A stretch of 64,000 bases of DNA from assembly GCA_029858285.1 (NCBI GenBank), contig JAOUFN010000010.1:1-64000 (forward strand), given 5' to 3'. Source of the DNA: Nitrospirota bacterium (lineage in GTDB: Bacteria > Nitrospirota > JACRHL01). Below are positions 22,627 to 54,714 of the stretch, in pieces (the first letter of the stretch is position 1; each line of letters starts with the position of its first letter). The position numbers and the translations under genes are program-made. The notes under the pieces were generated by a model. That model worked only from the letters and a program-made list of their open reading frames with translations. It made no database searches and had not been told where the DNA came from.

Positions 22627-24102
22627 ATGCCGTCCGCGCCGATGTCGTCTACCTCCGGGCCCGCCGCCTTTCTGGTCGCGGGCACCCGTTCCGGGGTGGG
22701 CAAGACCACCGTCACCCTGGGGCTGATGGGGGCGCTGCGGCGGCGCGGCCTGAGCGTGGCGCCGTTCAAGGCCGGTCCCGACTTCATCGATCCCGGTCTG
22801 CACGCTCTGGCGGCGGGCCGCCCTTCCCGCAATCTGGATACCTGGATGCTGTCGCCGCAGGCGGTGGCGGACGGCTTTTCCCGCGGTTGCCAGCGTGGGG
22901 CGGGGGAGGCCGGGGAGGCGGGCACCGTCGACGTGGCGGTGGTGGAGGGGGTGATGGGGCTGTTCGACGGCGCCCGGGGCGCGGATGCCGCCGGGTCCTC
23001 CGCCGATCTGGCCAAATTCCTGAACATTCCCGTGATTCTGGTGGTGGATGCCTCGGGCATGGCCGCCTCGGTGGCCGCCGTGGTGCATGGCTATGCCACC
23101 CTTGATCCGGCATTGCGGGTGGCCGGGGTGATCCTCAACCGGGTGGCCTCCGGCCAACATCTGGCGCACCTGGCCGAAGCCCTTGCCGCGCATGTGAGCG
23201 TGCCCCTGCTTGGTTACCTCGGGCGCGCCCCGGAACTGGCCATCCCGGAGCGTCATCTGGGGCTGGTCACCGCCGGGGAACTGGCCGACACCGGGGTGCT
23301 GGAGCGCATCGCCGAGCGGGTGGAGAAGGGGGTGGACCTGGAGCGGTTGCTGGCCGTCACCGCCACCTCCCTGCCGACGCCCCCTGCATCGGTGTCCACG
23401 CCTGAGTCCCTGCCTGTGGCCACTCGCAAAAAAGTGCGTCTGGGGGTGGCGCGAGACGCCGCGTTCTGCTTCATCTACCCGGAAACCCTGGAGGCGCTGG
23501 AACAGGCCGGGGCGGAAGTGATGCCCTTCAGTCCCCTCGTCGACGCGGCCCTGCCGGAGGTGGACGGCCTGTATCTGCCGGGAGGCTACCCGGAGGTCCA
23601 TGGGGCGGCGCTGTCCGCCAACCGGGCGATGCGGGAGCAGGTACGCCGGGCGGTCGCCGACGGCACGCCGGTGTACGCCGAATGTGGCGGGCTGATCTAC
23701 CTCAGCGAGGGGATTCACCTCGCGGACGGGACGTTTTACCCCTTCTGCGGCGTGCTGCCCGCCCCCTGCCGGTTGCAGGAAAAGCGCGCCGCCCTCGGCT
23801 ACCGCGAAGTCACCCTGTTGGCCGACGCTCCGCTGGGAGCGGCGGGCGATGTGCTGCGCGGCCACGAATTCCACTATGCCACCATCGACACCGCCGCCCT
23901 GGAGCAGGCCGGGGTGAGCACCAGCTTCGCGGTGGCCCGGCGCGGGGGCGGGGGCGGGGAGACGGAATCCCGCCCCGAGGGCTACCGCACCGGCAACCTG
24001 CTGGCCACCTGGTGCCACCTGCCCGTGACCCCGGCCATGGCCGTCCGCTGGGTGGAGCACCTGCGGCGACTGGCACCCTTGTCGGCAACTGGACTATCCT
24101 GA
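22627..24102 (+). CDS. cobB: cobyrinate a,c-diamide synthase family (CobB/CbiA; possibly DsrN-like)
   Basis: An ATP- and glutamine-dependent amidase that converts corrinoid side-chain carboxylates a and c to amides. The 491 residues hold a dethiobiotin-synthetase-like ATPase half (VAGTRSGVGKTTVTLG, FKAGPDFIDPGLH, VEGVMGLFDGARG) and a C-terminal class I glutaminase half with LYLPGGYPEVHG, the nucleophile Cys in YAECGGLIYLSEG (about residue 352) and GHEFHYATI. No other cobalamin gene is in the window, and it lies next to a CCG iron-sulfur protein and a flavoprotein. DsrN, a paralogue that amidates sirohaem in sulfur metabolism, is therefore an alternative. No cobalamin riboswitch fits in the 29-base gap after fabF. 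Confidence 0.88.
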   Translation: MPSAPMSSTSGPAAFLVAGTRSGVGKTTVTLGLMGALRRRGLSVAPFKAGPDFIDPGLHALAAGRPSRNLDTWMLSPQAVADGFSRGCQRGAGEAGEAGTVDVAVVEGVMGLFDGARGADAAGSSADLAKFLNIPVILVVDASGMAASVAAVVHGYATLDPALRVAGVILNRVASGQHLAHLAEALAAHVSVPLLGYLGRAPELAIPERHLGLVTAGELADTGVLERIAERVEKGVDLERLLAVTATSLPTPPASVSTPESLPVATRKKVRLGVARDAAFCFIYPETLEALEQAGAEVMPFSPLVDAALPEVDGLYLPGGYPEVHGAALSANRAMREQVRRAVADGTPVYAECGGLIYLSEGIHLADGTFYPFCGVLPAPCRLQEKRAALGYREVTLLADAPLGAAGDVLRGHEFHYATIDTAALEQAGVSTSFAVARRGGGGGETESRPEGYRTGNLLATWCHLPVTPAMAVRWVEHLRRLAPLSATGLS

Positions 24103-24152
24103 ACCGGTGCGCCGTGCCGGATTCGTCGCGGCCCCCGTGGGAGGGTAATCTG

Positions 24153-25436
24153 GTGGGAATCATCCGCGACACGCTTCGCGACAAGGTGGCCGACGGCCTC
24201 AGCGCCTGCATCGGCTGCCGCGAATGCCTGCGCGCCTGCCCGGTGGCGCCGCCCGGACTGCGCATTGCCGACCTCAACCATTGGACCGCCGGGGATGCCC
24301 CGCTGGCCGCGTCCGCCCCGATACCGACTCCAGTATCCCCCGCCCCCGCCGCCACGGAGGTGGTTGCCGTCGCCGATGCCGCCATTTCTTCCCCGGCCCC
24401 CCCCGCCGCCATGGTGGCGCGGCTGGCGGAGGAGTGTTTCCAGTGCGGCATGTGCGTGCCGGTGTGCCCTTCCGGTCTGGAGCGTGACGCCATGGTGCTG
24501 TGGCTCAAAAGTCGCCTGACTCCGCGCCCTGCCGAATACGACGCCAGCCTCAGGCGGCGTGGCCCGGCCCAGACGGTGGGCGAAAAGGTCGGGGTTACGG
24601 TGCACAACCTGCTGCACCGGGGGCGTCTGGGGTCCCTCTCCCGCCACGTGGACAAGCGTTCCCTGCAACCCGCCGACACCCTGTTTTTCTTCGGCTGCAA
24701 CATTTTTTCCACCACCGGCATGGGGGAAAAAATTCTCGCTATCGCCGACTACCTCAAATGCCGCTACGAGGTACTGGGCGGGCTGTCGTCCTGTTGCGGC
24801 TGGTCCAGCTACCTGAGCGGCGACCTGGACGGTGCCGGGGAGATGATGTCCCATCTGGCGGGGCGTATTGCCAAGGTCGCCCCCAAGGAGGTCATCACCC
24901 CGGGCTCCGAATGCTACGCGGCCCTGTCGCGCATTGCCGCAGTGCACCGCACGCCGTTCACGCCGGTGACCGTGGCCAGTTGGCTGCGCCGCAACCTGCA
25001 CCGCTTTCCCCTGCGCCACTTCCCCGGCACCATGACCTTCCACGACGCCTGCCACAGCAGCCGCAAGCTGGGGGAAGGGGAGGAGCCGCGCCGCATCCTG
25101 CGCCAGTTGGGGGCGCTGGTGGAGATGCGCCGCTTTGGCGACGACGCCCCGTGCTGCGGGCACCACCAGTTCGGCGTCAATCCGGCGCAGGTGGAGGCGC
25201 TGCGCGCCGACCGGCTGGCCATGGCCCGCGACGCCGGGGCGGCGCGCATGGTGGTGGAATGTGTCCGTTGTCAGGAGTCCTTTGCCCCCGGCGCGGAGGC
25301 GGCTCAGGTAGAGGTGCTGAGTCTGGTGGACCTGGTCTACGACCTGCTCCCCAGCGGCGACCGTCCTCAGGCCCGGCCGGTCCACTTTGCGCCGCCGGTG
25401 CAGAAGGGGGACCAGATTCCCATCGAGGGCATGTGA
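24153..25436 (+). CDS. iron-sulfur CCG-domain oxidoreductase (HdrD/GlpC/DsrK-like)
   Basis: A soluble 427-residue electron-transfer protein. From a GTG preceded by GAGGG it carries two ferredoxin-type [4Fe-4S] motifs, CIGCRECLRACP (about 19-30) and CFQCGMCVPVCP (about 95-106), separated by an Ala/Pro-rich insert. Two CCG-type domains follow. The first has FFGCN and SSCCGW but only a single Cys (GSEC) where the last pair is expected; the second (HDACHSS, APCCGHH, CVRC) is complete. The layout matches HdrD, GlpC and DsrK, which pass electrons between quinols, flavins and thiol/disulfide substrates. It overlaps the next flavoprotein gene by 4 bases, so the two probably form a complex. Substrate unknown. 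Confidence 0.85.
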   Translation: MGIIRDTLRDKVADGLSACIGCRECLRACPVAPPGLRIADLNHWTAGDAPLAASAPIPTPVSPAPAATEVVAVADAAISSPAPPAAMVARLAEECFQCGMCVPVCPSGLERDAMVLWLKSRLTPRPAEYDASLRRRGPAQTVGEKVGVTVHNLLHRGRLGSLSRHVDKRSLQPADTLFFFGCNIFSTTGMGEKILAIADYLKCRYEVLGGLSSCCGWSSYLSGDLDGAGEMMSHLAGRIAKVAPKEVITPGSECYAALSRIAAVHRTPFTPVTVASWLRRNLHRFPLRHFPGTMTFHDACHSSRKLGEGEEPRRILRQLGALVEMRRFGDDAPCCGHHQFGVNPAQVEALRADRLAMARDAGAARMVVECVRCQESFAPGAEAAQVEVLSLVDLVYDLLPSGDRPQARPVHFAPPVQKGDQIPIEGM

Positions 25437-26725
25437 ACTACCTCATTGCCGGATTCGGCCCCGCCGGGGCGCACGCCGCCGCCGCTATCCGCGAGTGCGA
25501 CCCCCACGGCGCCATCCATATTTTTTCCGCCGAAAGGCACCCGTTCTACTTCCGCGCTGCCCTGCCTCACTATGCACTGGGGCACATTGATCGCGACGGC
25601 CTGTGGGCGTTCCCCGCGGGAGAAACGGAGCGTCTGGGCCTCCGCCACCATCCGGTGCCCCTGGTGGCCATCGACACCGCCCGCAGCGTGGCGCGGGACG
25701 CGGGCGGCGGGGAGCACCCGTGGGACCGGTTGCTGATCGCCTGCGGCGCGGCGCCGTCGGCCATCGGCTGCCCCGGCGAAAGCGCTTCGGGCGTGGTGCA
25801 TTTCGACACCCTGGACGACGCCGAACGGGTGCGTGCCCTGTGCGGAGAGGGTGGCGGTTCACCCCCCCGCGAGGGCGGAGGCTCCCCGGACGGGCGGGCG
25901 ATCATCGCCGGCGGCGGCGCCCGCGCGCTGGCCCTGGCCTGGGTGGCCAGAAGGCTGGGCATGGACGTGCTGCTGCTGGTGCCGGAGGAGCGGCTGGCCG
26001 CCTCGCTGCTGGATGCCGCCGCCGCCATGCTGCTGTTTCGCCGCCTCACCGACGACGGTGTGGAGGTGCGCCTCGGGCAGCACATCACCGGCGTCGAACA
26101 CGCCCGGCAAGGTGGCGCTACCGCCCCCGCCTCCGGGTCCATCGTGGTTACCGGCGACGGGCGGCACCACCCCTGTCGCTGGCTGGGGGTGGGAACGGAT
26201 GGGGCCCCCGGTTCGCCCCTGGCGGTCAGCGCCGGGCTGCCGGAGGGGGCGGTGGAGGTGAATGCGCGGCTGGAGACCCGGCTGCCCGGCATCTACGCGG
26301 CGGGCGACGTCTGCTCGGTGCGGGAGGGCGGAGAGTCGTTGCGCTCCGGCGGCTGGCTGGCGGCAGTCACCCAGGGGCGGGTTGCGGGGCTCAACATGGC
26401 CGGGGGCGACGCCACCTACCAGTCCAGCCACTACTATCACGCCACCACCCTCTACGACCTGCCCGCAGTGTTGATCGGCGCCTGCGATGCCGCCGGTGAC
26501 GCCGCCGTCACCACCCACCCGCGCGGCCCCGATTACCGGCGTTTGGTGTTCCGCAAGGGGGCGCTCATCGGTGCCGTGCTGCTGGGCGACCGGCGCCACG
26601 CGGCGGTGCTGCGCCGCGCCATCGAATTGCAGGTCGACGTGCGCGGCTACGAGTTGCAGATGCTGCGCACCGACGTGGATCTGAACCGGCTGCTGCGCCC
26701 CAGCGGTGAATACCATCTATACTGA
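25433..26725 (+). CDS. FAD/NAD(P)-dependent oxidoreductase (pyridine nucleotide-disulfide type)
   Basis: A 430-residue flavoprotein starting at GTG inside the stop of the preceding Fe-S gene. The FAD fold is marked by YLIAGFGPAGAHAAAAI and the C-terminal LPGIYAAGDVCSV; a central NAD domain is suggested by AIIAGGGARALALAWVARR. No redox CxxC is visible in the first FAD domain, so it resembles rubredoxin/ferredoxin reductases or NADH oxidases rather than thiol reductases. The NAD glycine motif (GGGARA) is slightly altered. Coupling to the CCG protein suggests it feeds NAD(P)H electrons to, or takes them from, the iron-sulfur clusters. Partner and direction are inference. Confidence 0.85.
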   Translation: MNYLIAGFGPAGAHAAAAIRECDPHGAIHIFSAERHPFYFRAALPHYALGHIDRDGLWAFPAGETERLGLRHHPVPLVAIDTARSVARDAGGGEHPWDRLLIACGAAPSAIGCPGESASGVVHFDTLDDAERVRALCGEGGGSPPREGGGSPDGRAIIAGGGARALALAWVARRLGMDVLLLVPEERLAASLLDAAAAMLLFRRLTDDGVEVRLGQHITGVEHARQGGATAPASGSIVVTGDGRHHPCRWLGVGTDGAPGSPLAVSAGLPEGAVEVNARLETRLPGIYAAGDVCSVREGGESLRSGGWLAAVTQGRVAGLNMAGGDATYQSSHYYHATTLYDLPAVLIGACDAAGDAAVTTHPRGPDYRRLVFRKGALIGAVLLGDRRHAAVLRRAIELQVDVRGYELQMLRTDVDLNRLLRPSGEYHLY

Positions 26726-26813
26726 CGCGCCCTGTACTGACACGCCTTCGGGCGAATCCGCCAGTCTGGCCGTTTCGCCGCCCGGCCCGGTTGTCCCCCG
26801 TTTCGGAGACTTC

Positions 26814-28274
26814 ATGACTTCCCGAACATCCCGCCTTCGCGCCTTGTTTCCGCGTGTCTGGGGCTCTTTCGCCCCTTGCCCCGTGCGCGCGCTGGCCGCC
26901 GCCGGGCTGGCCACGGCCCTGTTGGGCGCGGCCTGCGCCACGCTGCCACCCGCGGCCCCCGGCACGGCGTCCGAAGGCGCGTCTCCTGTGGCGTCCGCCG
27001 CCGCTCCCGTTCACGCGGCACGCCACCATCCCCCCAAGGCCGATGGCGGCGGGACCGGGGTGAACGACTCTGACGCGAACGGCTCCGTCGGCTTCGCCTC
27101 GTTTGCCGCCAGTTCCCCCTACCGCGATCTGGACAACCTGCCAGCGGGCACTATCGTGCATGTGGCCAGCGGCCGCGAACTGTCCCCCGCCGAACTCATG
27201 GACAACCTGGCGGGCGCCCGCGTGGTGTACGTGGGAGAGATGCACACCAGCATCGAGGACCACCGCGTGCAGTTGGACATCATCCGCGCCCTGGACCAGC
27301 GCAGCGGCGGACGGGTGATGGTGGGCATGGAAATGTTCCAGCACACCGCCCAGCCCGGTCTGGACCGCTGGGTGGCCGGAGACATGGACGAGGCGGAGTT
27401 CCTGCGCCTGTGGTACGACAACTGGTCGGAGGATTTCGCCTACTACGCCGATATCCTGCGTTACGCGCGTGACCGCCACATTCCCCTGATCGCCCTCAAC
27501 GCCACCGGAGAGGAGGTGCGGCAGGTTTCCACCGGCAAGGCCGACGTGCCCGCGCCCAACCACACCCTGCTGGCAGAGGCCGACCCCTACCAGAAGGCCT
27601 ACATGAAGGCCATTCTGGGCGGCCACGAACATGCCGGGAGCGACGGCTTTGGCCGCGTGCAGCGGTTGTGGGAATCGACCATGGCCGAACACGCCGCCAA
27701 CGCCCTCGACAGCGAACGCGGCCAGGGCAGAACTCTGGTGGTGCTGGCGGGTTCCGGCCATGTGCAGTACGGCTTTGGCATTCCGCGCCAGCTCTACATC
27801 CGGCGTCCGTTGCCATACCGCAGCGTGGTGCCGGTGACCAACGTGCCGGAAAACCGCGACGACCTGCGCATGGAGGTGGCGGTGCCCGATTTCCCCTTCC
27901 CCGTCGCCGATTTTGTCTGGTCGGTGGACTATCGTGATCGGGAGGGGAAGCGCATGCTGCTGGGTGTGGCGCTGGAGCCGGACGGCCACGGCATGACGGT
28001 GCGTCAGGTGCTGGAAGGCACCGCCGCCGAGGGGGCCGGTGTGCTGGCCGGGGATCATCTGGTGTCCCTGGACGGCCACCCCCTGGGCTCCATGTCCGAG
28101 GTGCGCGCCGCCATGGCCCTGGTCGAGGACGGCCACCGTGGCCAACTGGTGCTGGAGCGGGGCGGCGTCCGCATGACCCTGGGGGTCACCTTCCGGCTGC
28201 CGTTGCCCGGAGCAGGTGGGGTGGAGGGAATGGGGGAGGGTTCGGGCGCTTCGGCAACCCCGGCATCTCCATGA
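26814..28274 (+). CDS. ChaN-like haem-binding lipoprotein with C-terminal PDZ domain
   Basis: A 486-residue exported protein. The ATG after TTTCGGAGACTTC is preferred over an upstream frame. A basic leader and hydrophobic stretch end in GAAC (Cys about 41), an imperfect lipobox. After a low-complexity segment comes a ChaN/Cofac_haem_bdg domain (about 105-360): ARVVYVGEMHTSIEDHRVQL, GGRVMVGMEMFQ, LVVLAGSGHVQYGFGIP. In this family (ChaN of Campylobacter, HutZ-unrelated) dimers bind haem at the surface. A PDZ domain follows (about 390-470: EGTAAEGAGVLAGDHLVSLD). It is 88 bases after the flavoprotein and may share its operon. Confidence 0.85.
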   Translation: MTSRTSRLRALFPRVWGSFAPCPVRALAAAGLATALLGAACATLPPAAPGTASEGASPVASAAAPVHAARHHPPKADGGGTGVNDSDANGSVGFASFAASSPYRDLDNLPAGTIVHVASGRELSPAELMDNLAGARVVYVGEMHTSIEDHRVQLDIIRALDQRSGGRVMVGMEMFQHTAQPGLDRWVAGDMDEAEFLRLWYDNWSEDFAYYADILRYARDRHIPLIALNATGEEVRQVSTGKADVPAPNHTLLAEADPYQKAYMKAILGGHEHAGSDGFGRVQRLWESTMAEHAANALDSERGQGRTLVVLAGSGHVQYGFGIPRQLYIRRPLPYRSVVPVTNVPENRDDLRMEVAVPDFPFPVADFVWSVDYRDREGKRMLLGVALEPDGHGMTVRQVLEGTAAEGAGVLAGDHLVSLDGHPLGSMSEVRAAMALVEDGHRGQLVLERGGVRMTLGVTFRLPLPGAGGVEGMGEGSGASATPASP

Positions 28275-28409
28275 GAATGCGTTTTCTCGGGTACCCTGTC
28301 TGCGTCACACGCCCGTGCCGGTGACGGCGGGTTTGCCGGATTCGCGACTGTTTGTTACCTTTGGCCTTTGATGCGGACCCCGAGGTCCGCAGGTTCCGGG
28401 AGAGGGTTC

Positions 28410-30437
28410 ATGTTATCCGCCTATCTGCAGTACTGGGGGCTCAAGGAGCCGCCGTTCTCGCTGGCGCCCAGCCCCAGGATGTTCTACCTGAGCGATCAGC
28501 ACCGCGAGTGTCTGATGCGCCTCAAGTACGCCATCCATTCGGGCAAGGGTGGGGCGCTGCTGGTTTCCGAACACGCCGGTGACGGCAAAACCACCACACT
28601 GCAACTGTTGATGCAGCAACTGGTGGAAGAAACCAACGACCGCATCCGCATCGCGTTCCTTGATTACCCCACCATGACCCCGGCCCAGATGGTGGCCGAA
28701 ATCGCCCGCCAGCTCGGCGTTGACGGGGTCAGCGGTGACAAGGTGCGCGACATCAACCTGCTGCGCGAACACCTGCGCGCCTGCCACGGCCGGGGCATCC
28801 GCAACCTGGTGGTGGTGGACGAGGGGCAGATGATGGCGGAGCAGCCGGAACTGCTCCAGGAGTTCCGCATCCTCCTCAATTTTTGCGTGGGCGGTGAGTT
28901 TCTGCTCAGCTTCATCCTCTCCGGGCAGGCGCCGCTGGATGCCGCAGTGCGCGCCTTTCCGGAATTCTGGCAGCGCCTGCCGGTGCGCTACATGCTGCGC
29001 AACCTGGGCGCCGCCGATACCCGCAATCTGGTGCATCACCGGCTGGCCATTGCGGGCGCGGCGCGGCCCCTGTTCACCGACACCGCCCTGGAGGGTGTTT
29101 TCCGCTTTTCCCAAGGTTGCCCCCGTGTCATTTGCGCGGTGGCGGACCTGGCCCTGGTGGTGGGCCACAGCAACCGCTCCCGCTATGTGGATTTTGCCGA
29201 GGTGACGCAGGCTTGCTCCGACATGGAGCACTCCAGTTCCTCCATCCACTACTACGATTTCCTCAATGCCCCGGCGGACGCCAATGCCTGGCCCGCGCCT
29301 GCCGCTCCGGGGAGCGCGCGGCGCGGCGACACATCCGGCCGAACCATGCCCCATTGGGCGGCGGGTCCGGGTGCCGCTCCGGCCCTGCGCACCGATCCGG
29401 CCGCCTACACCATGGCGCCCACCCTGCCCCAGGTGGCCTTCAGCCTGGCCACGGATACGGAGCAGCCGGTGCGGCCACGCGGCGCGCCACGGGTGTTGCC
29501 CACCGACCCGATCCCCCCGGACTGGCGTCCGGCGGCCAGTGCCGAGGGGGCGGCCCCGCTGCCGGAGGAAATGCAGCCTGGCGCCGCCGCCAGCGCCCAA
29601 TGGCAGCCGCTGGAGTCGGCGGCGGGCGAGTCCACAGGTGTTTCGGCAAACTCTTCCGCAAATGCTCCCGCAAGTACCCCTGGAAATGCCGGTGGCGACG
29701 GCGGTGATTCCGGAGACGATTCCGGGAATCCGTCCCGCCCGGGCGCCGGGAACGGCCCCGCCGTGGCGGTCGAAATGCCGCCGCTCCCGGTGGTCGATCC
29801 CGAGGCCGTGGCGCGCCTGAACCGGGAGCCGGTCCACTGCCCCATGTGCGCCACCGCCGTGGCCCACAGCGCAGAGGCCTGCCCCAAGTGCCAGACTGTC
29901 ATCAAGGTGGCCTGTGGCCGCTGCCGTTCCCTGCAATCGGTGCTGCGCAGCCGCTGCGGCTACTGCTCGTTCCCCATCAATGCCTGGGCGCGGGAATCGG
30001 AAAAGGAGTTTTTGGCCGGACTGCGCCGTCTGGACCTGCTCCAGTCCGCCGAGTCGGCGGAGCGCGTCAAGTTTCAGATGCACCCCACCATGGAGGGGCG
30101 GGTGTTGTACTTTGCCCCCCGCGACACACTGTTCCGCCAGGGGGCGCGGGTCGGAGTGATCCAGGAGGGGCAGCCCACGGAGTTCGCCGGCTGCGCCGTG
30201 ATGATCGGCAACCGCCGGTTGGTGTTCCTGTACCCCGACCGCCGGGTGGATCTGGAACTGGAGGAACTGGACGCCTGCGACCTGGTCTCCGAAAACGGGG
30301 CCCAGGGGGGTGGGTTGGTGATCCGCGCCGGTAACCTGGCCTGGCAGGTGCATCTGCCCATCCGCGAGGGTCGCCGCACCGCCGCATACCGGCTGGTGCA
30401 GACCTTTTTGGCCCGGATGCGCACGGCGGTGCGGTGA
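28410..30437 (+). CDS. ExeA-like AAA ATPase with zinc ribbon and novel C-terminal domain
   Basis: A 675-residue protein. Residues 1 to about 270 are an ExeA/GspA-type ATPase: YWGLKEPPFSLAPSPRMFYL, Walker A SEHAGDGKTTTL, Walker B LVVVDEGQMM, and QLGVDGVSGD. ExeA proteins normally continue with a membrane segment and peptidoglycan-binding domain; none is seen. Instead there is a disordered Pro/Ala/Gly/Ser linker (about 285-470), an eight-cysteine zinc ribbon (CPMC, CPKC, CGRC, CGYC; about 475-522) and a soluble beta-rich domain (about 545-675, LYFAPRDTLFRQGARVGVI, VMIGNRRLVFLYPDRRVDLELEE) with a PH-like look. The function is unknown; regulation of an assembly or secretion machine is the nearest family role. 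Confidence 0.8.
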   Translation: MLSAYLQYWGLKEPPFSLAPSPRMFYLSDQHRECLMRLKYAIHSGKGGALLVSEHAGDGKTTTLQLLMQQLVEETNDRIRIAFLDYPTMTPAQMVAEIARQLGVDGVSGDKVRDINLLREHLRACHGRGIRNLVVVDEGQMMAEQPELLQEFRILLNFCVGGEFLLSFILSGQAPLDAAVRAFPEFWQRLPVRYMLRNLGAADTRNLVHHRLAIAGAARPLFTDTALEGVFRFSQGCPRVICAVADLALVVGHSNRSRYVDFAEVTQACSDMEHSSSSIHYYDFLNAPADANAWPAPAAPGSARRGDTSGRTMPHWAAGPGAAPALRTDPAAYTMAPTLPQVAFSLATDTEQPVRPRGAPRVLPTDPIPPDWRPAASAEGAAPLPEEMQPGAAASAQWQPLESAAGESTGVSANSSANAPASTPGNAGGDGGDSGDDSGNPSRPGAGNGPAVAVEMPPLPVVDPEAVARLNREPVHCPMCATAVAHSAEACPKCQTVIKVACGRCRSLQSVLRSRCGYCSFPINAWARESEKEFLAGLRRLDLLQSAESAERVKFQMHPTMEGRVLYFAPRDTLFRQGARVGVIQEGQPTEFAGCAVMIGNRRLVFLYPDRRVDLELEELDACDLVSENGAQGGGLVIRAGNLAWQVHLPIREGRRTAAYRLVQTFLARMRTAVR

Positions 30438-44968: not shown

Positions 44969-45114
44969 GGCCGCACATGGTACCACCGGCGGGGCCGCAA
45001 TCGGGTGGTGCGCGCTGTTGCGGATGGGAAAAATGACCGAAAGGGGGCGGGAAGGCGCCGGAAAACGGTCGCCCTCCTCCGGTGGCGCACGGGTCCTCCG
45101 CACGTTTGCTGCGA

Positions 45115-45143
45115 TTGACACGGCCCTGGCCACCAGTTAGGGT
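45115..45143 (+). promoter_or_regulatory. possible promoter of the cus cluster
   Basis: A perfect TTGACA (45115-45120), a 17-base spacer and TAGGGT (3 of 6). A poor -10 is consistent with an activator-dependent promoter, but I see no clear dyad for a CueR- or CusR-type regulator. Confidence 0.3.
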
Positions 45144-45159
45144 GATAGGCAGAGATTTC

Positions 45160-45645
45160 ATGTTGCGTCTGTGGCCCAAAAAACTCCCCCTCCGTCCGTT
45201 GTCTGGTCGGTTGCTGCTGGTGATCGCACTGGTGGTGGGGCATTGCTGCATGGTGACACTGCCGTCCCACGCTGTGGCGGGCGTGGCGCAGGGGGACATG
45301 GCGCAAGGGGACACGGCAATGGCCTCCGGGGCGATGCCTTCCGGGCATGCCGGACACGGGCGCGCCGCCGCGCCGCTGGCCCACATCCCGCAGCACCAGA
45401 CGGTGTCCGCGCCGCCCATGGCCCCGTGTGGAACCGCCCCCTATCTGGCCGCCGAACGCGCCCCCCTGTCTCCCAAGTGGTTGGCTGGCGGCGTTTTCGC
45501 CCCCTCTCCCTTGGCGCTGGCCGCCGTACTGGCGGCGGAGTGGCCCCTCACCCCCCACGGCAAAACCGCCACGGGCTGGCGGGGAGGAGTCTCCGAGGCT
45601 CCTCCGGGCCACTCCCGCGCCCACCTGCAAATCTTCCGCATTTGA
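45160..45645 (+). CDS. small secreted Met/His-rich protein of the cus cluster
   Basis: A 161-residue exported protein not recognised as a family; short proteins of this sort (some as DUF2946) often precede metal efflux genes. A signal segment (LSGRLLLVIALVVGHCCMVTL) is followed by a Met-, His- and Gly-rich stretch (GDMAQGDTAMASGAMPSGHA, then GHGRAAAPLAHIPQHQ) able to bind soft metals such as Cu(I) or Ag(I). The rest is Ala/Pro-rich. It lies 141 bases before the TolC gene in the same orientation. Confidence 0.65.
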   Translation: MLRLWPKKLPLRPLSGRLLLVIALVVGHCCMVTLPSHAVAGVAQGDMAQGDTAMASGAMPSGHAGHGRAAAPLAHIPQHQTVSAPPMAPCGTAPYLAAERAPLSPKWLAGGVFAPSPLALAAVLAAEWPLTPHGKTATGWRGGVSEAPPGHSRAHLQIFRI

Positions 45646-45786
45646 TTCCTCACGCCCCGGGGCGGAGGTCCGCACCCGGTGATGTTCTGGCGGGGTGGCC
45701 GTGTGCGGCCGCCCCCGTGGTGTGACGTCCGCCGCGGCCAGTTTTTCGAAACAGGGCCGCGGCGGCTGAAGGTGAGGAGGTGGGGA

Positions 45787-47226
45787 ATGCACTGTCTTCC
45801 CCCGACATGCCCACGGCCCCCCGTGGGACGATTCCTGGTGCTGCTTCTGGCTCTGGCCCCCGTCTGGTGTCTGTTCCCGGTGGCCCCAGCAGGCGCCGCA
45901 GCCCTTGACGTGGAAACGGCGGTGGCCGAGGCGCTGGCCCATAATCCGGGCTTGCTGGCCCGCGAGGCTGCCGCCGGGGCCATGGCGGAGGTTCCCTCCC
46001 GGGCCGGGGCGCTGCCCGACCCCATGCTGATGCTGGGGGTGATGTCGGTGCCCGCCGACAACCCTTCCCTGACCCGTGAATCCATGACCCAGGTGGGCAT
46101 CGGCTTCACCCAGATGCTGCCGTTTCCCGGAAAACGCGGCCTGATGCGCCAGGCCGCCGGCGCCGGGGCGCTGGCCGCCGGGGAAGGGGTGGCCGAGGCG
46201 CGGCTGGAACTGATCGCCCGTGTGCAGCAGGCATGGTGGCGGCTGCTGAGTCTTGATCGGGGGCTGGACATCGTGCGCCAGACCCAGGTGTTGATGGGGC
46301 AGTTCGTGGACATAGCGCAAACCCGTTACAAGGTGGGCAAGGGGCTGCAACAGGATGTGCTGCTGGCCCAGGTGGAATACTCAAAGTTGATCGACGCCGA
46401 ACTGGGGCTGGAGCGGGACCGCATCGGCGTGCAATCCGAACTCAATGCGCTCATGGGCCGCCCCGTGGAGCAGTTGCTGCAGATGCCCCAGACGGTGGAT
46501 GAGCAGTTGGGCCGCACCCCGGTGCCGGCCTGGCTGATGGCGCTGGCGGAATCCGCCCGCCCCCGGCTGGCCGAGACCCGGCAGCGGGTGGGAGCGGCGC
46601 AGGCGATGCTGGCGCTGGCGCGGCGCGACCACCTGCCGGACATCACCGTCAGCGGCACCTACGAATGGCGGCCGGGCGTGGATGCCACGGGCATGGACCG
46701 CCCGGACAGCGTCTCCTTGACCCTCGGCGTGCCACTGCCGGTGCATTACGGCGCCCGCCAGCGGCGGCTGGTGTCGGAACGCCGCCACGAACTGGACGCC
46801 GCCACCCGCGAACTGGAGGCGGCGCGCCTCGAGGTGCAGAACGAGATCAACCGGCTGGCCGCCGAGTACGACACCGGTCGCCGCCAGGTGGAGTTGTTGC
46901 GCGGCGGCATCATCCCTCAGGCGGCGCAGACCGTGGCCTCCATGGCCTCCGGCTATCAGGTGAACAAGGTGGATTTTTTGAATCTGGTGGGCGCCCAGGT
47001 GACCCTGCTGGAATACCAGATCCGCTACTGGAACATCCTTGCCGACACCCGCGTGGCGTGGGTGAAGCTGAACAGCGCGGTGGGGGCCGAGGTGGGGATG
47101 GGCGTTCAGGAATTCCCCGCCCTGCCCGCGCCCTTCGTGCCCGCCATGCCGGTACGGCCCGAATCGCCCGCGCCGCCCTCCGGGGCCGAATCAAATCATC
47201 ACAATCATCCCGGTGGGGAGCAATAA
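45787..47226 (+). CDS. TolC-family outer-membrane efflux protein (CusC/CzcC-like)
   Basis: Outer-membrane channel of the tripartite efflux system. The ATG after GAGGTGGGGA gives 479 residues with a signal peptide (about 1-38). Two TolC repeats follow with coiled-coil helices (ELIARVQQAWWRLLSLDRGLDIV and RRLVSERRHELDAATRELEAARLEVQ); ALPDPMLMLGVMSVPADNP and SVSLTLGVPLPVHYG are typical of the metal-efflux branch. The C-terminus is His-rich (SNHHNHPGGEQ). No lipobox. Six bases separate it from the adaptor gene. Confidence 0.92.
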   Translation: MHCLPPTCPRPPVGRFLVLLLALAPVWCLFPVAPAGAAALDVETAVAEALAHNPGLLAREAAAGAMAEVPSRAGALPDPMLMLGVMSVPADNPSLTRESMTQVGIGFTQMLPFPGKRGLMRQAAGAGALAAGEGVAEARLELIARVQQAWWRLLSLDRGLDIVRQTQVLMGQFVDIAQTRYKVGKGLQQDVLLAQVEYSKLIDAELGLERDRIGVQSELNALMGRPVEQLLQMPQTVDEQLGRTPVPAWLMALAESARPRLAETRQRVGAAQAMLALARRDHLPDITVSGTYEWRPGVDATGMDRPDSVSLTLGVPLPVHYGARQRRLVSERRHELDAATRELEAARLEVQNEINRLAAEYDTGRRQVELLRGGIIPQAAQTVASMASGYQVNKVDFLNLVGAQVTLLEYQIRYWNILADTRVAWVKLNSAVGAEVGMGVQEFPALPAPFVPAMPVRPESPAPPSGAESNHHNHPGGEQ

Positions 47227-47231
47227 GCGTC

Positions 47232-48731
47232 ATGAACGCCAGAATTCGCATTGTATTGGGCCTTGTGGCCATGCTCGCTGTGGGACTGGTCGCCGGATAC
47301 CTGATGGCCCCGGGTGAGCGTCAGGGTGCGAGCCCCGACCTCGAAGAGCGCCGCCCCCTGTTCTACCGCAATCCCATGAACCCGGCGGTGACCTCGCCGA
47401 TTCCGGCCAAGGACGAGATGGGCATGGATTACGTTCCGGTCTACCGGGAGGAGGGGAGTGGTCAGGGGTCGGACGGCCCCGGATCGCCGTCCGGCACCGT
47501 GCGCATCGACCCCGCCACCGCGCAGAGCATCGGCGTGCGCACGGCGGTGGTGGAGCGGCGCACCCTCACCCGGGTGATCCACACCTCGGGGCGGGTGGAC
47601 TACGACGAGGAACGTCTGGCGCGCCTGCACCCCAAGACCGAAGGATGGATCGAAAAGCTTTTTATCGACGCCACCGGCCAACCGGTGCAGCAGGGCACCA
47701 TCCTGCTGTCCATCTACTCCCCGGATCTGGTGCAGAGCCAGGAGGAGTACCTTTTGGCCTACCAGAACATGAAGGCGGTGAGCGACAGCCCCTTCGAGCA
47801 CATCCGCAAGGGCGCGGTGGATTTACTGGAGTCGTCCCACCAGCGCCTGCACATGCTGGACGTGCCGGAACACCAGATTCACGAACTGGAAACCACCCGG
47901 CAGGTGCGCAAGAGCCTGCACATCCATTCCCCCTTCGACGGCGTGGTGGTGGCGGTTGGGGCGCGCCAGGGCCAGTACGTGACGCCGGAAACCGAGCTCT
48001 ATTCCATCGCCGACCTGTCGGAGGTGTGGGTCTATGTGGACGTGTTCGATGCCGAACTGCCCTGGGTGAACGCCGGGGACCACGCGGAGATGACCCTCAA
48101 GGGGGTGCCCGGCCGCACCTTCGGCGGCCTGATCCGCTACGTCTACCCCTATGCCGAAAAGGAGACGCGCACGGTCAAGGTGCGGCTGGAATTCGCCAAT
48201 CCCGGCGGCCTGCTCAAGCCGGAGACGTTTGCCGACGTGACCATCCACGCCGGGCGGCTGGTCAACGCCCTGGTAATTCCCACCGAGGCGGTGCTGCGCT
48301 CCGGTGCCCGCGATCATGTTTTTGTGGTGCGCGGGGAGGGGCGTTTTGAACCCCGTGAGGTGACACTGGGGATGGCCTCCGACAATCTGGTGCAGGTGCT
48401 CAAGGGGCTGAAACAGGGCGACGTGGTGGTGACCTCCGCCCAGTTCCTGATTGATTCCGAATCCAAGTTGCGCGAGGCCACCGCCAAGATGATGGAGGTC
48501 GGCGACGGGCAGGCGGCGCCGGAAGCGCCGGCACCGACGCCACCTGCCAGGTCGGCTCCGGCCAGAAAAAAGGCCCCGCCCGCGCCCCACCCGGCCCCGG
48601 CCACTCCCGCCGTACCCGGCCACGACATGCCCGGCATGGACATGGCCCCCACGCCCGGCCACGACATGCCCGGCATGGACATGGCCCCCACGCCCGGCCA
48701 CGACATGCCCGGCATGGACATGGGCAAATAG
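47232..48731 (+). CDS. cusB: RND efflux periplasmic adaptor CusB
   Basis: Membrane-fusion protein linking CusA to the TolC channel. The 499 residues have an N-terminal anchor (about 5-26), a heavy-metal-binding segment (FYRNPMNPAVTSPIPAKDEM, then GMDYVPVY), the barrel-sandwich hybrid and hairpin (RLHPKTEGWIEKLFIDATG, SIYSPDLVQSQEEYLLAYQN), lipoyl region SPFDGVVVAVGARQGQYV and beta-barrel parts. The tail holds three copies of GHDMPGMDMAPTP (last truncated), a Met/His/Asp-rich array likely to bind Cu or Ag. Confidence 0.95.
   Translation: MNARIRIVLGLVAMLAVGLVAGYLMAPGERQGASPDLEERRPLFYRNPMNPAVTSPIPAKDEMGMDYVPVYREEGSGQGSDGPGSPSGTVRIDPATAQSIGVRTAVVERRTLTRVIHTSGRVDYDEERLARLHPKTEGWIEKLFIDATGQPVQQGTILLSIYSPDLVQSQEEYLLAYQNMKAVSDSPFEHIRKGAVDLLESSHQRLHMLDVPEHQIHELETTRQVRKSLHIHSPFDGVVVAVGARQGQYVTPETELYSIADLSEVWVYVDVFDAELPWVNAGDHAEMTLKGVPGRTFGGLIRYVYPYAEKETRTVKVRLEFANPGGLLKPETFADVTIHAGRLVNALVIPTEAVLRSGARDHVFVVRGEGRFEPREVTLGMASDNLVQVLKGLKQGDVVVTSAQFLIDSESKLREATAKMMEVGDGQAAPEAPAPTPPARSAPARKKAPPAPHPAPATPAVPGHDMPGMDMAPTPGHDMPGMDMAPTPGHDMPGMDMGK
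48618..48728 (+). repeat. 39-bp tandem repeat at the 3' end of cusB
   Basis: Two full 39-bp units (48618-48656, 48657-48695) and a third, shortened one encode GHDMPGMDMAPTP repeats up to the stop codon. Copies are nearly or fully identical at the DNA level. Confidence 0.95.
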
Positions 48732-48740
48732 GGGGGCGCC

Positions 48741-51700
48741 ATGCTGAAAATCATCATCGACTGGTGCCTCAAAAACCGCTTTCTGGTACTCATCGCCACT
48801 ACCCTGCTGGTGGCGGCTGGCCTCCTGGCGGTGCGTTCCACGCCGCTGGACGCCATCCCCGATCTGTCGGACGTGCAGGTCATCGTCTTCACCGAATACC
48901 CCGGGCAGGGGCCGCAGGTGGTGGAGGACCAGATCACCTACCCCCTCACCACCACCCTGCTGTCGGTGCCGGGGGCGGACGTGGTGCGCGGCTACTCGTT
49001 CTTCGGCCTGAGCTTCGTGTACATCATCTTTGCCGACGGCACCGACATGTACTGGGCGCGTTCCCGGGTGCTGGAGCTGCTCAACTTCGCCCGCGGGCGG
49101 CTGCCGGCGGGCGTCAACCCCTCCCTCGGCCCGGACGCCACCGGCGTCGGCTGGATTTACGAATACGCCCTGGTGGACCGCAGCGGCGGTCACGATCTGG
49201 CCCAGTTGCGCAGCATTCAGGACTGGTTTCTGCGCTACCCCCTGCAAACCGTGCCCGGTGTGGCGGAGGTGGCCTCGGTGGGGGGCTACGTCAAGCAGTA
49301 CCAGGTGGAGGTCAACCCCAACGCCCTGCTGGCCTACAACATCCCCCTGTCGCGGGTGCGGCAGGCCATCATGCAGTCCAACAACGACGTGGGCGGCGGC
49401 ACCATCGAGATGGGCGAAACCGAATACATGGTGCGCGGCCTGGGCTATATCCATTCCGTGGACGACCTGAAACCGATCCCGGTAGGGGTGGACGCACGCG
49501 GCACCCCGGTGCGTTTGCAGGATGTGGCGCAGATCAGCATCGGCCCGGAGATGCGCCGGGGCATCACCGAACTCGGCGGTAAGGGCGAAGTGGTCGGAGG
49601 CGTGGTGGTGATGCGCTACGGCGAAAACGCCCTGACCACCATCCGTCTGGTGCGGGCAAAGCTCGCCGAATTGTCGCGCAGCCTGCCGGAAGGGGTGGAG
49701 ATCGTCCCCGTGTACGACCGGGGCGACCTGATCGAACGCGCCGTACACACCCTCAGCGGCAAGCTGCTGGAGGAGTTTCTGGTCATTTCCCTGGTGTGCG
49801 TGCTGTTCCTGTTCCATGCCCGCTCCGCGCTGGTGGCCATCCTCACCCTGCCGCTGGGAATGCTGGCCGCCTTTCTGGTCATGCGCGCCCAGGGCATCAA
49901 CGCCAACATCATGAGTCTGGGGGGCATTGCCATTACCCTGGGGGCGATGGTGGACGGCGCCATCGTGCTGATCGAGAACGCCCACCGCCATCTGGCCGCC
50001 GCCACCGGCCCCGACGGCAGGCCAGCGGACGCCCGCACCCGCTGGGCGGCCATCACCCGCGCCAGCCACGAGGTGGGGCCGGCGCTGTTCTATTCCCTGC
50101 TCATCATCACCGTGAGTTTTTTGCCGGTGTTCACCCTGGAGGCCCAGGAGGGGCGGCTGTTCAAGCCCCTGGCGTTCACCAAAACCTACGCCATGGCGGC
50201 GGCGGCGGTGCTTTCCATCACCGTGGTGCCGCTGCTGATGGGCTTCTTCATCCGCGGCCGCATTCCGTCTGAGGGGGCCAACCCCCTCAACCGCTGGCTG
50301 CGGGCCGCGCACCGGCCCCTGCTGGGCATGGCCCTGCGCCACCGTACCGCCACACTGGTGGGGGCCGGGCTGCTGGTGGCCGCCACCGCCTGGCCGGTGC
50401 TGCACGTTGGCAGCGAGTTTATGCCGCCTCTGGACGAAGGCGACTTGCTGTACATGCCCACCACCTTCCCCGGTATCTCCGTCACCAAGGCCAAGGAGCT
50501 GTTGCAGCAAACCGACCGGGTGATCGCCACCTTCCCCGAGGTGGACACGGTATTTGGCAAGGTGGGCCGCGCCGAGAGCGCCACCGACCCCGCCATGCTG
50601 TCGATGCTGGAGACCACCATCCGCCTCAAACCCCGTGACCAGTGGCCCGATCCGCACAAGGACACCGCCGATCTGATCCGTGAACTGGACAGGTCGATTC
50701 GCTTCCCCGGCGTGGCCAACGCCTGGACCATGCCCATCAAGACCCGCATCGACATGCTCTCTACCGGCATCAAAACTCCGGTGGGGGTCAAAATCAGCGG
50801 CCCCAGCCTGATCGAACTGGAGCGTCTGGCTGGAGAGGTGGAACGGGCGCTCAAAAACGTGCCGGGGACGGTTTCGGCATTTGGCGACCGCGCCGTGGGC
50901 GGCAATTTTTTCGATTTCGTGATCCGCCGCGCCGAGGCAGCCCGCTACGGCCTGACCGTGGCCGACGTGCAGGACGTCATCAGCACCGCCGTGGGGGGCA
51001 TGACCATCACTAACACGGTAGAGGGGCTGGAGCGCTACCCGGTCAACCTGCGCTATCCGCGTGACCTGCGGGACGATCCGGAGCGGCTGGCGCGGGTGCT
51101 CATTCCCACCCCCAGCGGCGCGCAAATCCCCTTAAGTCAGGTGGCCGACGTGCGCATGGCGCGCGGACCCGCCAGCATCAAGAGCGAAGGGGCGCGTCCC
51201 AACGCCTGGGTGTATGTGGACATCGACACCTCCGATATCGGCGGCTACGTCGCCCGCGCCCGGGAGGCGGTGAACGCCTCCGTGACCCTGCCCCCCGGCT
51301 ACGCGCTGGTGTGGTCCGGGCAGTTCGAATACATGCAGCGCGCCGCCGAGCGCCTCAAACTGGTGGTGCCTTTGACCTTGCTGCTGATCTTCCTGCTGTT
51401 GTATTTCCATTTCCGCAACCCGGTCGAGCCGCTGGTGGTGATGCTGTGCGTGCCGTTTGCAATGGTGGGGGGCATGTGGCTGGTGTACCTGCTGGGCTAC
51501 AACCTGTCGGTGGCGGTGGCGGTGGGGTTCATCGCCCTGTCCGGGGTGGCGTCGGAGATCGGCGTGCTGGTGCTCACCTTCATCGACCACGAGGTGCAGC
51601 GCCTGCGGGAAGAGAAACGGGCAGAGGCGCGATCCGCAGGCGGCGACGAGCGGCTGTCGGCGCAACAAATCCTGGACGCGGCCCACGCGGGTACCGCGCA

Positions 51701-51941
51701 CCGCCTGCGCCCGATTGCCATGACCGCCGTGGCGGTGACCGCCGGTTTGGTGCCCATCATGTGGGGCGGCGGCAGCGGCGCCGACGTGATGCGCCGCATT
51801 GCCGCGCCGATGATCGGCGGCATGGTGACCACCACGCTGCTGTGTCTGGTGGTGCTGCCGGTGGTCTACGCCCGCGTGCTCACCTGGCGCGAGGGGCGGG
51901 GGGCCGCACCGGGGCAGGGACCCGGACAGGAGTCCGGCTAG
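48741..51941 (+). CDS. cusA: Cu(I)/Ag(I)-type RND efflux pump CusA
   Basis: Proton-driven inner-membrane pump, 1066 residues. The heavy-metal RND signature is clear: LDAIPDLSDVQVIVFTEYPGQ near the N-terminus, TM4 charged motif GGIAITLGAMVDGAIVLIEN, and porter-domain methionines placed as in E. coli CusA (DPAMLSMLETTIRLKP and RIDMLSTGIKTPVGVKISGP), which point to monovalent copper/silver rather than Zn/Co. Nine bases separate it from cusB. Its TAG stop and the stop of the convergent gene share a CTAG. Confidence 0.96.
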   Translation: MLKIIIDWCLKNRFLVLIATTLLVAAGLLAVRSTPLDAIPDLSDVQVIVFTEYPGQGPQVVEDQITYPLTTTLLSVPGADVVRGYSFFGLSFVYIIFADGTDMYWARSRVLELLNFARGRLPAGVNPSLGPDATGVGWIYEYALVDRSGGHDLAQLRSIQDWFLRYPLQTVPGVAEVASVGGYVKQYQVEVNPNALLAYNIPLSRVRQAIMQSNNDVGGGTIEMGETEYMVRGLGYIHSVDDLKPIPVGVDARGTPVRLQDVAQISIGPEMRRGITELGGKGEVVGGVVVMRYGENALTTIRLVRAKLAELSRSLPEGVEIVPVYDRGDLIERAVHTLSGKLLEEFLVISLVCVLFLFHARSALVAILTLPLGMLAAFLVMRAQGINANIMSLGGIAITLGAMVDGAIVLIENAHRHLAAATGPDGRPADARTRWAAITRASHEVGPALFYSLLIITVSFLPVFTLEAQEGRLFKPLAFTKTYAMAAAAVLSITVVPLLMGFFIRGRIPSEGANPLNRWLRAAHRPLLGMALRHRTATLVGAGLLVAATAWPVLHVGSEFMPPLDEGDLLYMPTTFPGISVTKAKELLQQTDRVIATFPEVDTVFGKVGRAESATDPAMLSMLETTIRLKPRDQWPDPHKDTADLIRELDRSIRFPGVANAWTMPIKTRIDMLSTGIKTPVGVKISGPSLIELERLAGEVERALKNVPGTVSAFGDRAVGGNFFDFVIRRAEAARYGLTVADVQDVISTAVGGMTITNTVEGLERYPVNLRYPRDLRDDPERLARVLIPTPSGAQIPLSQVADVRMARGPASIKSEGARPNAWVYVDIDTSDIGGYVARAREAVNASVTLPPGYALVWSGQFEYMQRAAERLKLVVPLTLLLIFLLLYFHFRNPVEPLVVMLCVPFAMVGGMWLVYLLGYNLSVAVAVGFIALSGVASEIGVLVLTFIDHEVQRLREEKRAEARSAGGDERLSAQQILDAAHAGTAHRLRPIAMTAVAVTAGLVPIMWGGGSGADVMRRIAAPMIGGMVTTTLLCLVVLPVVYARVLTWREGRGAAPGQGPGQESG

Positions 51942-53056
51942 GGGGGAGGAACGGCCGACAGATCCCGGTCGAGGTCGTAGGCGCGCACATGGGCCACCCA
52001 TGCGTCGAGCCGGGTGCGGTAATTCTCCGGCGTCAGACGATAGCTCCCCTGGCGCACCTCGTGCAGGATACGGTGGCTCACCGCCACCGAGTAGTGGGAG
52101 GTGTCTTTGTAGTTGTCCAGGTTGTCGGCCACGCCGGCAAAATCGCCAAAGAAGTGCAAGGTGACGTTGGGTTCCCGGAGCAGCTTTGTAACCAGGCTCT
52201 CCAGGATCGCCACAGATGTGGAAAATGTCCCCGGCGAGAGTCTTGCCATCAGCGCGTGGTGCAGGGTGGAAAATGGTGGCACGAAGATGTCGAAGCGCAC
52301 CTCCGGATGGGCGCGTATCACCAGCAGCACATTGCGGTCAATATTGTCCGCCGCCGTCACCAGCAACCTGGGGTCCGTACCTGCATCGGGTGCGGTTGCG
52401 CCGGGGATGGCAGCGAGCGCGGTGTCCCCGGCAATTTCCCGCAGCACCTTTGCCCTTCCCGGCCGGTACCTGGGATTGCGGTACCAGGCCATCATGTTTT
52501 CCAGATTGAGGCGGCTGTGTCCCGGCGACAGCAGCTTGGCCACCGCCGTCTGCACCACGCTGAGGTTGTAGACGTACTGCACGTCGTTGAACGGGTTGTC
52601 GTCGTAGAAGAAATACGGATAACCGGCGGCGCGGGTCTCCACCGACATCATCGTTTCCCGGTCGTCGATGCCCCACAGCACCCGCTGCACCTGGCCGGTA
52701 CGCAAGGCCACATCCAGCACCTGGCGGACTTCAAACAGGGTGCCACCGCTGATGGACAGGTTGATGACCTTTCCGCCCAGCACGCTGGCGGTGGGGGAAC
52801 GGGTGAAATTTTGTGCCAGCGAGGTGCCCACCGCCACCGTGTCGTAGTCCTGATGGCGCGCCAGCCCCGGCATGATGTAGCGCTCGTCTCCCATAATCCA
52901 CTCCGAGGCCCGCCAGTTCTGCAGCGGGTCGGTCCACAGGACCAGTGCGGCAACGGCCACAGGAAGAACCCCCAGCGCGGCGCACAGGAACCACAGGACA
53001 AAGCGACGCGGGCGGATGGGGGCGGGATGGAAGAAGTGCGACACGTCAGAAACCAA
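51938..53056 (-). CDS. SGNH-like protein partnering the MBOAT acyltransferase
   Basis: A 372-residue protein with one N-terminal membrane segment (FVLWFLCAALGVLPVAVAALVLW), otherwise extracytoplasmic. GTSLAQNF resembles the SGNH block I serine, and NYKDTSHYS near the C-terminus holds the Asp/His expected for an SGNH or AlgJ/AlgX-like O-acetyltransferase. LSISGGTLFEVRQVLDVALR and LWGIDDRETM are also seen in proteins paired with MBOATs. The track start is TTG, overlapping the MBOAT stop by 11 bases; a GTG four codons later just past that stop is a possible alternative. Confidence 0.7.
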   Translation of the reverse strand: MVSDVSHFFHPAPIRPRRFVLWFLCAALGVLPVAVAALVLWTDPLQNWRASEWIMGDERYIMPGLARHQDYDTVAVGTSLAQNFTRSPTASVLGGKVINLSISGGTLFEVRQVLDVALRTGQVQRVLWGIDDRETMMSVETRAAGYPYFFYDDNPFNDVQYVYNLSVVQTAVAKLLSPGHSRLNLENMMAWYRNPRYRPGRAKVLREIAGDTALAAIPGATAPDAGTDPRLLVTAADNIDRNVLLVIRAHPEVRFDIFVPPFSTLHHALMARLSPGTFSTSVAILESLVTKLLREPNVTLHFFGDFAGVADNLDNYKDTSHYSVAVSHRILHEVRQGSYRLTPENYRTRLDAWVAHVRAYDLDRDLSAVPPP

Positions 53057-54563
53057 AATAGATGAACTCGGTAACGCGGTTGCGGTCCATTACCACATAG
53101 AGGGCAATGGCCCCCAGCGCCAGTCCCCAGCCCCAGGCCCCGCGCAGGGTGGGGCGGAAGCGGGCTGCGATGGCGTGGGAGTTGGGCGCCACGGCACAGG
53201 CAAGGGTGGATGCCAGCAGCAGGACCAGCATGACGTAGGGGGCCGCCGCCACTCCCAAATCGGTCAAGGTGGTTCCGGGCCGGTGCATCAACAACCCGAC
53301 CAGCTTGCCCAGGTTCTGCATCACCTCCGGGGTCGGCCCCAGGTGCGCGAGAGCGCCGGACGGGTATAAGCCGCCCAGTGGCGCGCCCATGCCGAACATG
53401 GCCTTGATCACCCGAGTGGCGTCGGCCCACTCTTTGGCGCGAAAGAACACCCAGGCAAAGTTCACGAACAGGAACGTCACCAGCCACGCCGCCACCACCG
53501 GCAACCGACCGCCCAGCCGCGTCCACACCCGATGTACGGTGGACGCCAGCCCGTGCAGGAATCCCCAGAACACGAAAGTCCACCCGGCCCCATGCCACAG
53601 ACCACCGAGCAGAAAAACGACCATCAGGTTGCCCAGTGCGCGGGGCTCGCCCTTGCGGTTGCCCCCCAGCGGCACATACAGATAATCGCGCAAAAAGCGG
53701 CTCAGGGTCATGTGCCAGCGGCGCCAGAAATCCTGGATCGACACTGCCTTGTAGGGGCTGTCGAAGTTGATCGGCAGACGGATGTTGAACAGCAGCGCCG
53801 CGCCCAGTGCCATGTCCATGTAGCCGGAAAAATCGAAATAGAGCTGCATCGAATAGCACAGGGAGGTGACCCACCCCTCGACGATGTTCAGCTCGGGGGC
53901 CTTGTCGAAACCGCTGGTGGCCCACACCGCGAGGGTATCGGCAATAATCACCTTTTTGGCCAGACCGATGGTGAAGATCACCCCGCCATGGGCAATGTTG
54001 CGCCAGTGAACGGTCATGTTCCGCAGGCGGGCGAACTGGGTCATCATCTCCGTGTGGTGCACGATGGGGCCGGAGACGAGTTGGGGAAAAAAGGTCACGA
54101 ACAGGCAGTAGTCCAGAAAATGCCGTTCCCGGGCCAGACCGCGCCGGGTGTCCACCAGATAGGCGATCTGCTGAAAGGTGAAAAAACTGATGCCCAGGGG
54201 CAGGGCCAGGTGCCACGCGGCAATGTGGGTTCCGGTGGCCAGATTGATGTTGGCGATGGCCCAGTCGGTATATTTGAACCAGGCCAGACCGGCCAGATTG
54301 CCCAGGATGCCGAAGGCCAGCAAGCGGGTGCCGTTCCCTCCGTCACCCCCGCGCTTGAGGGAGGATCCGACGGCGTAATTGAACAGGATGGAGACCAGAA
54401 TGACCGGCAGGAATTCGACGCGCCCCCAACTGTAGAAAAACAGCGAGCAGAACACCAGCCAGGCCTGTGCGGCCACGGTCAATCGCCTCCGCGCCAGCCA
54501 GAAATAGCCGACGACCGCCAACGGCAAAAAAGCGAAGATGTATTCGTAGGAAAAAAATAGCAT
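53046..54563 (-). CDS. MBOAT-family O-acyltransferase (AlgI-like)
   Basis: A 505-residue polytopic enzyme that moves acyl groups across the inner membrane for O-acetylation of a polysaccharide. AlgI/DltB landmarks: MLFFSYEYIFAFLPLAVVGY, LPLGISFFTFQQIAYLVD, FFPQLVSGPIVHH, DFWRRWHMTLSRFLRDYLYV, PLGGNRKG and the catalytic His in LLGGLWHGAGWTFVFWGFLHG. The target (alginate-like polymer, cellulose, peptidoglycan or LPS) cannot be told; no polymer synthase is nearby. Confidence 0.93.
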   Translation of the reverse strand: MLFFSYEYIFAFLPLAVVGYFWLARRRLTVAAQAWLVFCSLFFYSWGRVEFLPVILVSILFNYAVGSSLKRGGDGGNGTRLLAFGILGNLAGLAWFKYTDWAIANINLATGTHIAAWHLALPLGISFFTFQQIAYLVDTRRGLARERHFLDYCLFVTFFPQLVSGPIVHHTEMMTQFARLRNMTVHWRNIAHGGVIFTIGLAKKVIIADTLAVWATSGFDKAPELNIVEGWVTSLCYSMQLYFDFSGYMDMALGAALLFNIRLPINFDSPYKAVSIQDFWRRWHMTLSRFLRDYLYVPLGGNRKGEPRALGNLMVVFLLGGLWHGAGWTFVFWGFLHGLASTVHRVWTRLGGRLPVVAAWLVTFLFVNFAWVFFRAKEWADATRVIKAMFGMGAPLGGLYPSGALAHLGPTPEVMQNLGKLVGLLMHRPGTTLTDLGVAAAPYVMLVLLLASTLACAVAPNSHAIAARFRPTLRGAWGWGLALGAIALYVVMDRNRVTEFIYFGF

Positions 54564-54714
54564 ACCGCCACAGCACACACGCCGCCGGGGGGCGATTTTG
54601 GGGTCCAGCCCGGACCGTGAACCTGTCCCCGGTCAGGATATCACGGTCGGGTCGGAAATTTGACGGATGTGGTGGAGGCGACGCGGACGTGCAGCACGGG
54701 TGTGAGCCTTGCGC

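Follow-up and report, generated by a model that had tools for sequence, protein, structure and literature searches.

The question raised by this locus is why a cobalamin-type amidase gene is followed on the plus strand by overlapping genes for an iron-sulfur protein and a flavoprotein and then by a lipoprotein gene. The four genes are located within a 64-kb stretch of DNA (the window) from a Nitrospirota genome of 2.56 Mb that is 99.5% complete. All four were found to be open and gave strong curated matches in profile scans: a cobyrinate (or hydrogenobyrinate) a,c-diamide synthase gene, cobB/cbiA (22627-24102), a gene for a soluble Fe-S protein with ferredoxin-type and CCG motifs (CCG protein; 24153-25436), a gene for an FAD subunit of the PadH/AorC/NirB-N-terminal kind (25433-26725) and a gene for a ChaN/Tiki-type (Cofac_haem_bdg) lipoprotein with a PDZ domain (26814-28274). 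The initial annotation was correct in the family names of all four genes and in describing an operon-like layout of tandem genes on one strand with short gaps. The most likely start of the CCG gene is GTG at 24153, which lines up with the ATG at which the orthologue in the related genome G003 begins, and the lipoprotein is likely to start at ATG 26814, which places a lipobox, LLGAAC, in the sequence. A promoter and terminator scan of the locus gave nothing informative.

The CobB protein scored 500.3 bits against the equivalog profile NF002204 (cut-off 254), and 402 bits against the CfbB (F430) profile, below the cut-off of 560, which places it outside the CfbB exception family. Length, P-loop and a GATase_3 domain with ECGG were also those of CobB/CbiA, and apart from its position outside the main cob cluster nothing unusual was seen. 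Only two full-length GATase_3 proteins were found in the genome, CobQ and CobB, and the gene at this locus encodes the single CobB copy. It was claimed earlier that the window contains no cob genes; this holds for the window, where no other cob gene than cobB was found, but the pathway is encoded on other contigs of the same genome. Contig C7 contains cbiET and cbiF/cobM, followed by cbiP/cobQ, cbiB and cobD; contig C38 contains hemA, hemC, SUMT-hemD and hemB; contig C29 encodes a precorrin-2 methyltransferase (cbiL/cobI type); contig C16 contains cbiH/cobJ and btuR; and contig C19 contains cbiD, cbiC and a second cbiET. Methylases, CbiB and BtuR were named by Pfam matches and the others by reading the sequences. 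Besides the BtuR-type adenosyltransferase, a B12-binding protein of methionine-synthase size was present, and a PduO-type adenosyltransferase was absent. The presence of CbiD points to the anaerobic B12 route. The genome that carries the Fe-S/FAD pair thus also carries most of the anaerobic B12 pathway, an association that had been put forward for checking. Since it is the sole copy and most of the pathway is scattered on other contigs, cobB is an ordinary, needed gene of a dispersed anaerobic adenosylcobalamin pathway, and therefore no role in sirohaem or F430 synthesis is required. Its being the sole copy also makes an identity as DsrN unlikely.

The genes for the CCG protein and the FAD subunit were found to be closely coupled. 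The GTG start of the FAD gene and the stop of the CCG gene overlap by 4 bases, and this overlap was conserved throughout the four genera of the Nitrospirota family to which the source genome belongs, which argues for coupled synthesis of the two proteins. Among 296 Nitrospirota genomes the pair was found in 4, which are all members of this one family, with close relatives in the other three genera at 70, 58, and 52% identity. A search of the 296 genomes showed a wide gap between the family (E-value 2.7e-222) and the next best match (7.5e-28). Outside the source genome, a collection-wide pattern search, which reaches near relatives only, returned three loci: two close ones, which belong to this family, and a distant one. 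No homologue of the FAD subunit was found within approximately 1.5 kb of the distant CCG loci checked, and a plasmid search with the CCG protein gave no match. Homologues of the FAD subunit (approximately 26-30% identity) were common in Nitrospirota without CCG partners, and their neighbours were 4Fe-4S ferredoxin-like, rubrerythrin, rubredoxin-like or unrelated genes. Judged from these comparisons, the pair is one unit, specific to one family within the phylum sample. The earlier view of the pair as a single redox unit is supported, and the pair did not prove to be widespread away from tetrapyrrole genes.

The CCG protein matched PF02754 with 58.5 bits (threshold 20.6). It contains two ferredoxin-type motifs of the CxxCxxCxxxC(P) form (C21/24/27/31 and C97/100/103/107) and two CCG domains. 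The C-terminal CCG domain contains five cysteines (302, 336, 337, 372, and 375) in a complete C-X33-CC-X34-CXXC arrangement, which is the type of motif found at the catalytic clusters of HdrB. The N-terminal domain contains four of the five (184, 216, 217, and 256), with GXXC where CXXC is expected, so that the HdrB-type motif is complete in the C-terminal domain only. The eight ferredoxin-type cysteines and all the CCG cysteines listed were invariant in an alignment of the four genera. Fold matches were EtfD, LutA and HdrB, which were also the solved relatives by sequence, from a structure model of low confidence (mean pLDDT 54; below 50 for the first 175 residues, including both ferredoxin motifs). 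Compared to CCG proteins of the EtfD/HdrD/GlpC/LutA type, the protein shares two ferredoxin-type sites and two CCG domains, except that its N-terminal CCG domain is one cysteine short and that it has no membrane part, as no strong transmembrane-like segment was detected. It also fell below the cut-offs of the curated profiles for GlpC (42 vs. 278 bits), TfrB (57 vs. 385), LdhH (57 vs. 800) and DsrK (21 vs. 400). The best curated match was NF045663 (pyridine nucleotide-disulfide oxidoreductase/dicluster-binding protein), a family named for a flavoprotein domain and a dicluster region; this is a single polypeptide of 759 positions, against which the CCG protein scored 61 bits compared to a cut-off of 530. 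NF045663 was not among the 25 best matches of the FAD subunit, and a literature search on this family returned nothing relevant.

The FAD subunit is a protein with two dinucleotide folds (Pyr_redox_2, PF07992; 113 vs. 26 bits) in which the FAD site is kept. PadH and NirB were its best curated matches, both below cut-off; the score against the PadH profile was 100 bits, or 100-150 bits over the scans made, compared to a cut-off of 475. Both by sequence and by fold the best solved relative was AorC (8c0z_E), and the fold matches included the flavin folds of reductases acting on persulfides and on CoA-disulfide. AorC and PadH, the FAD subunits of AOR and phenylglyoxylate dehydrogenase, share with this protein the fold, the length, the FAD site and the role of partner to a separately encoded 4Fe-4S protein. 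The partner is, however, a CCG protein here and not a polyferredoxin, and the GGGxxGLE ... VVE signature of AorC and PadH is replaced by a GGGxRALxLA-like sequence and LLVP. A comparison of the second dinucleotide fold showed GGGVLGLEAG ... VVE in five other Nitrospirota homologues, whereas the four family members contained GGGARALALA, GGGVRALSLA, GGGLPGLTLA or GDGIYALTLC and then LLVP, which was the same in all four. In the site comparison the NADH signature was lost in all four family genera, but was complete in five and partly kept in two of the seven other Nitrospirota homologues compared. An acidic residue usually holds the ribose of NADH; the family subunits have neither this residue nor the helix glutamate. 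We infer that NADH use has probably been lost in these subunits; NADPH or another donor may still serve. Because the NADH signature is lost throughout the family, the proposal of an NAD(P)H-driven reductase has become doubtful.

It was further examined how far the position of the pair next to cobB can be taken as a sign of common function. The order plsX/fab genes, cobB, CCG, FAD, chaN-PDZ, ExeA-like ATPase and anmK was the same in the source genome and in two of the related genomes, G001 and G003; in the third, G002, the order from CCG to anmK was the same and the contig ends there. The pair and cobB were thus adjacent, with cobB directly upstream, in all three genera where the contig permits the test, and the gap between cobB and the CCG gene was approximately 40-50 bases in two genera. 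When all called genes of the window were mapped onto G001, they were shown to be collinear from approximately 1.2 to 63.8 kb, a region including ruv, gap, radA, trp, coaD and truA, with the exception of one block, at approximately 45.1-54.6 kb, that was missing. Since this collinearity spans nearly the whole window and includes housekeeping genes, the adjacency of cobB and the pair looks like background synteny, and the gene order appears to have been inherited rather than kept for function. Conserved neighbourhood as proof of function was rejected on the same ground. No cobalamin riboswitch was detected at the gathering or at a relaxed threshold, and no shared distribution linking the pair to corrinoids was found. 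The tetrapyrrole link of the module, as first proposed, has nothing but this adjacency behind it, and the opposite possibility considered there, that CobB is a usual enzyme of cobalamin synthesis whose gene lies here by chance, is for the most part borne out by its sole copy, the scattered pathway and the family-wide collinearity. The block missing from G001 (45082-54578) encodes an efflux pump of the RND type and an acyltransferase-like membrane protein, and part of this block is present in G003 at a different distance.

The likely explanation for the locus is that an ordinary cobB lies beside a family-specific soluble flavin/Fe-S electron-transfer complex and was placed there by conserved gene order. 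CobB would act as the a,c-diamide synthase of the scattered anaerobic adenosylcobalamin pathway, and the CCG protein and the FAD subunit would form one soluble complex. This complex would consist of a PadH/AorC-type FAD subunit and an HdrD/GlpC-like subunit that binds two clusters of the cubane type and at most two of the CCG type. The FAD, the ferredoxin clusters and the five-cysteine CCG cluster of the C-terminal domain would form an electron path that takes electrons from, or delivers them to, either a protein partner or a small molecule, the latter most probably a disulfide-type compound. Some observations do not sit easily with this explanation: the short gap between cobB and the CCG gene would fit one operon including cobB, adjacency in all three testable genera may reflect a functional link, and the CCG model is of low confidence. 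Should the complex prove to be one more flavin/Hdr-like module, it would extend a large class that is already known by a lineage-specific combination of an AorC-type FAD subunit and a CCG protein without the usual NADH site.

A more specific form of this explanation, which we regard as possible but tentative, is an HdrB/D-type reductase of disulfides or persulfides, in which FAD and the ferredoxin clusters would supply the electrons and the C-terminal five-cysteine CCG cluster would use them to cleave a low-molecular-weight disulfide. The complete C-terminal motif, invariant in four genera, the presence of HdrB among the fold matches of the CCG protein and the persulfide and CoA-disulfide reductase flavin folds matched by the FAD subunit are consistent with such an enzyme, whereas the N-terminal motif is one cysteine short and the electron donor is a gap in this reading. 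Besides, the CCG clusters of EtfD can be pure wires and not catalysts (PMC13083937), so that catalysis cannot be read from a CCG motif alone.

That the pair is instead a reductase of cob(II)yrinate a,c-diamide, or of corrinoids in general, co-transcribed with cobB and supplying Co(I) to BtuR, is unlikely. The step after CobB is the reduction of Co(II) to Co(I) followed by adenosylation, and CobB makes its substrate (PMC8123684); many producers using the anaerobic pathway do not have CobR (PMC4083273), BtuR is encoded in the genomes and cobB is directly upstream of the pair in three genera. In addition, a flavin and two [4Fe-4S] clusters were shown to suffice for corrin reduction by PduS (PMC2982820), a working principle that the pair could share, although PduS is a single, NADH-dependent chain with FMN, unlike the pair. 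Neither CobR nor PduS families were among the profile matches of either subunit. Against a corrinoid reductase are also the adjacency being background synteny, the location of btuR elsewhere (contig C16), the lack of a detected cobalamin riboswitch, the restriction of the pair to one family and the loss of the NADH signature. Moreover, once the corrinoid sits on the adenosyltransferase, its Co(II) can be reduced by flavodoxin or by free reduced flavin (PMC4083273). The strongest version, a new nicotinamide-independent flavin/CCG reductase making Co(I) corrinoid for BtuR right after CobB, at a step for which most anaerobic producers of B12 have no enzyme of their own, is rather improbable; if corrinoid reduction were true, the pair would offer a candidate that can be tested for the reduction of cobalt, a step for which many organisms with the anaerobic pathway have no CobR orthologue (PMC4083273).

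The ChaN-PDZ lipoprotein matched ChaN PF04187 with 185 bits (threshold 27.7) as well as PDZ_2; the Cofac_haem_bdg domain and the lipobox were both found, and syntenic orthologues were present in all relatives. The ChaN family is named for haem binding, and the four tandem genes on one strand with short gaps could be read as a single haem/corrinoid operon in which the lipoprotein would deliver or sense haem. This is very improbable, as the tandem run goes on with fab genes upstream and the ExeA-like ATPase and anmK downstream, all equally conserved, while the lipoprotein acts outside the cytoplasm and its gene is separated from the FAD gene by 88 bases. The ExeA-like AAA ATPase (28368-30437) has a long linker rich in Pro and Ala and a C-terminal part resembling a zinc ribbon, and the position of its gene beside chaN-PDZ was conserved in each of the four genera.

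Replacement by the pair of a missing cobalt-precorrin-6A reductase, CbiJ, whose chemistry is hydride transfer from nicotinamide, is scarcely credible and was rejected: PF02571 was absent from all four family genomes despite the presence of other pathway genes, but it was missing from almost the whole phylum (279 of 296 genomes, nearly all without the pair) and from several control genomes with CbiB, so that its absence does not track the pair, and the FAD subunit seems unfit for nicotinamide binding.

Two further observations concern the B12 pathway itself. CbiJ (PF02571) was detected in no more than 17 of the 296 Nitrospirota genomes, which leaves members of the phylum that make B12, this family among them, without an assigned enzyme for its step. 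The source genome also appears to have two CbiET proteins. The one on contig C7 (L074:11239-13263) is a CbiE/CbiT protein of 674 aa with an acidic, RG-rich low-complexity insert of approximately 200 aa within the CbiE half, and the second, on contig C19 after cbiD and cbiC (L115:10244-11953), is normal-looking. G001 and G003 have frames of similar length to the protein with the insert (703 and 685 aa) at the corresponding position.
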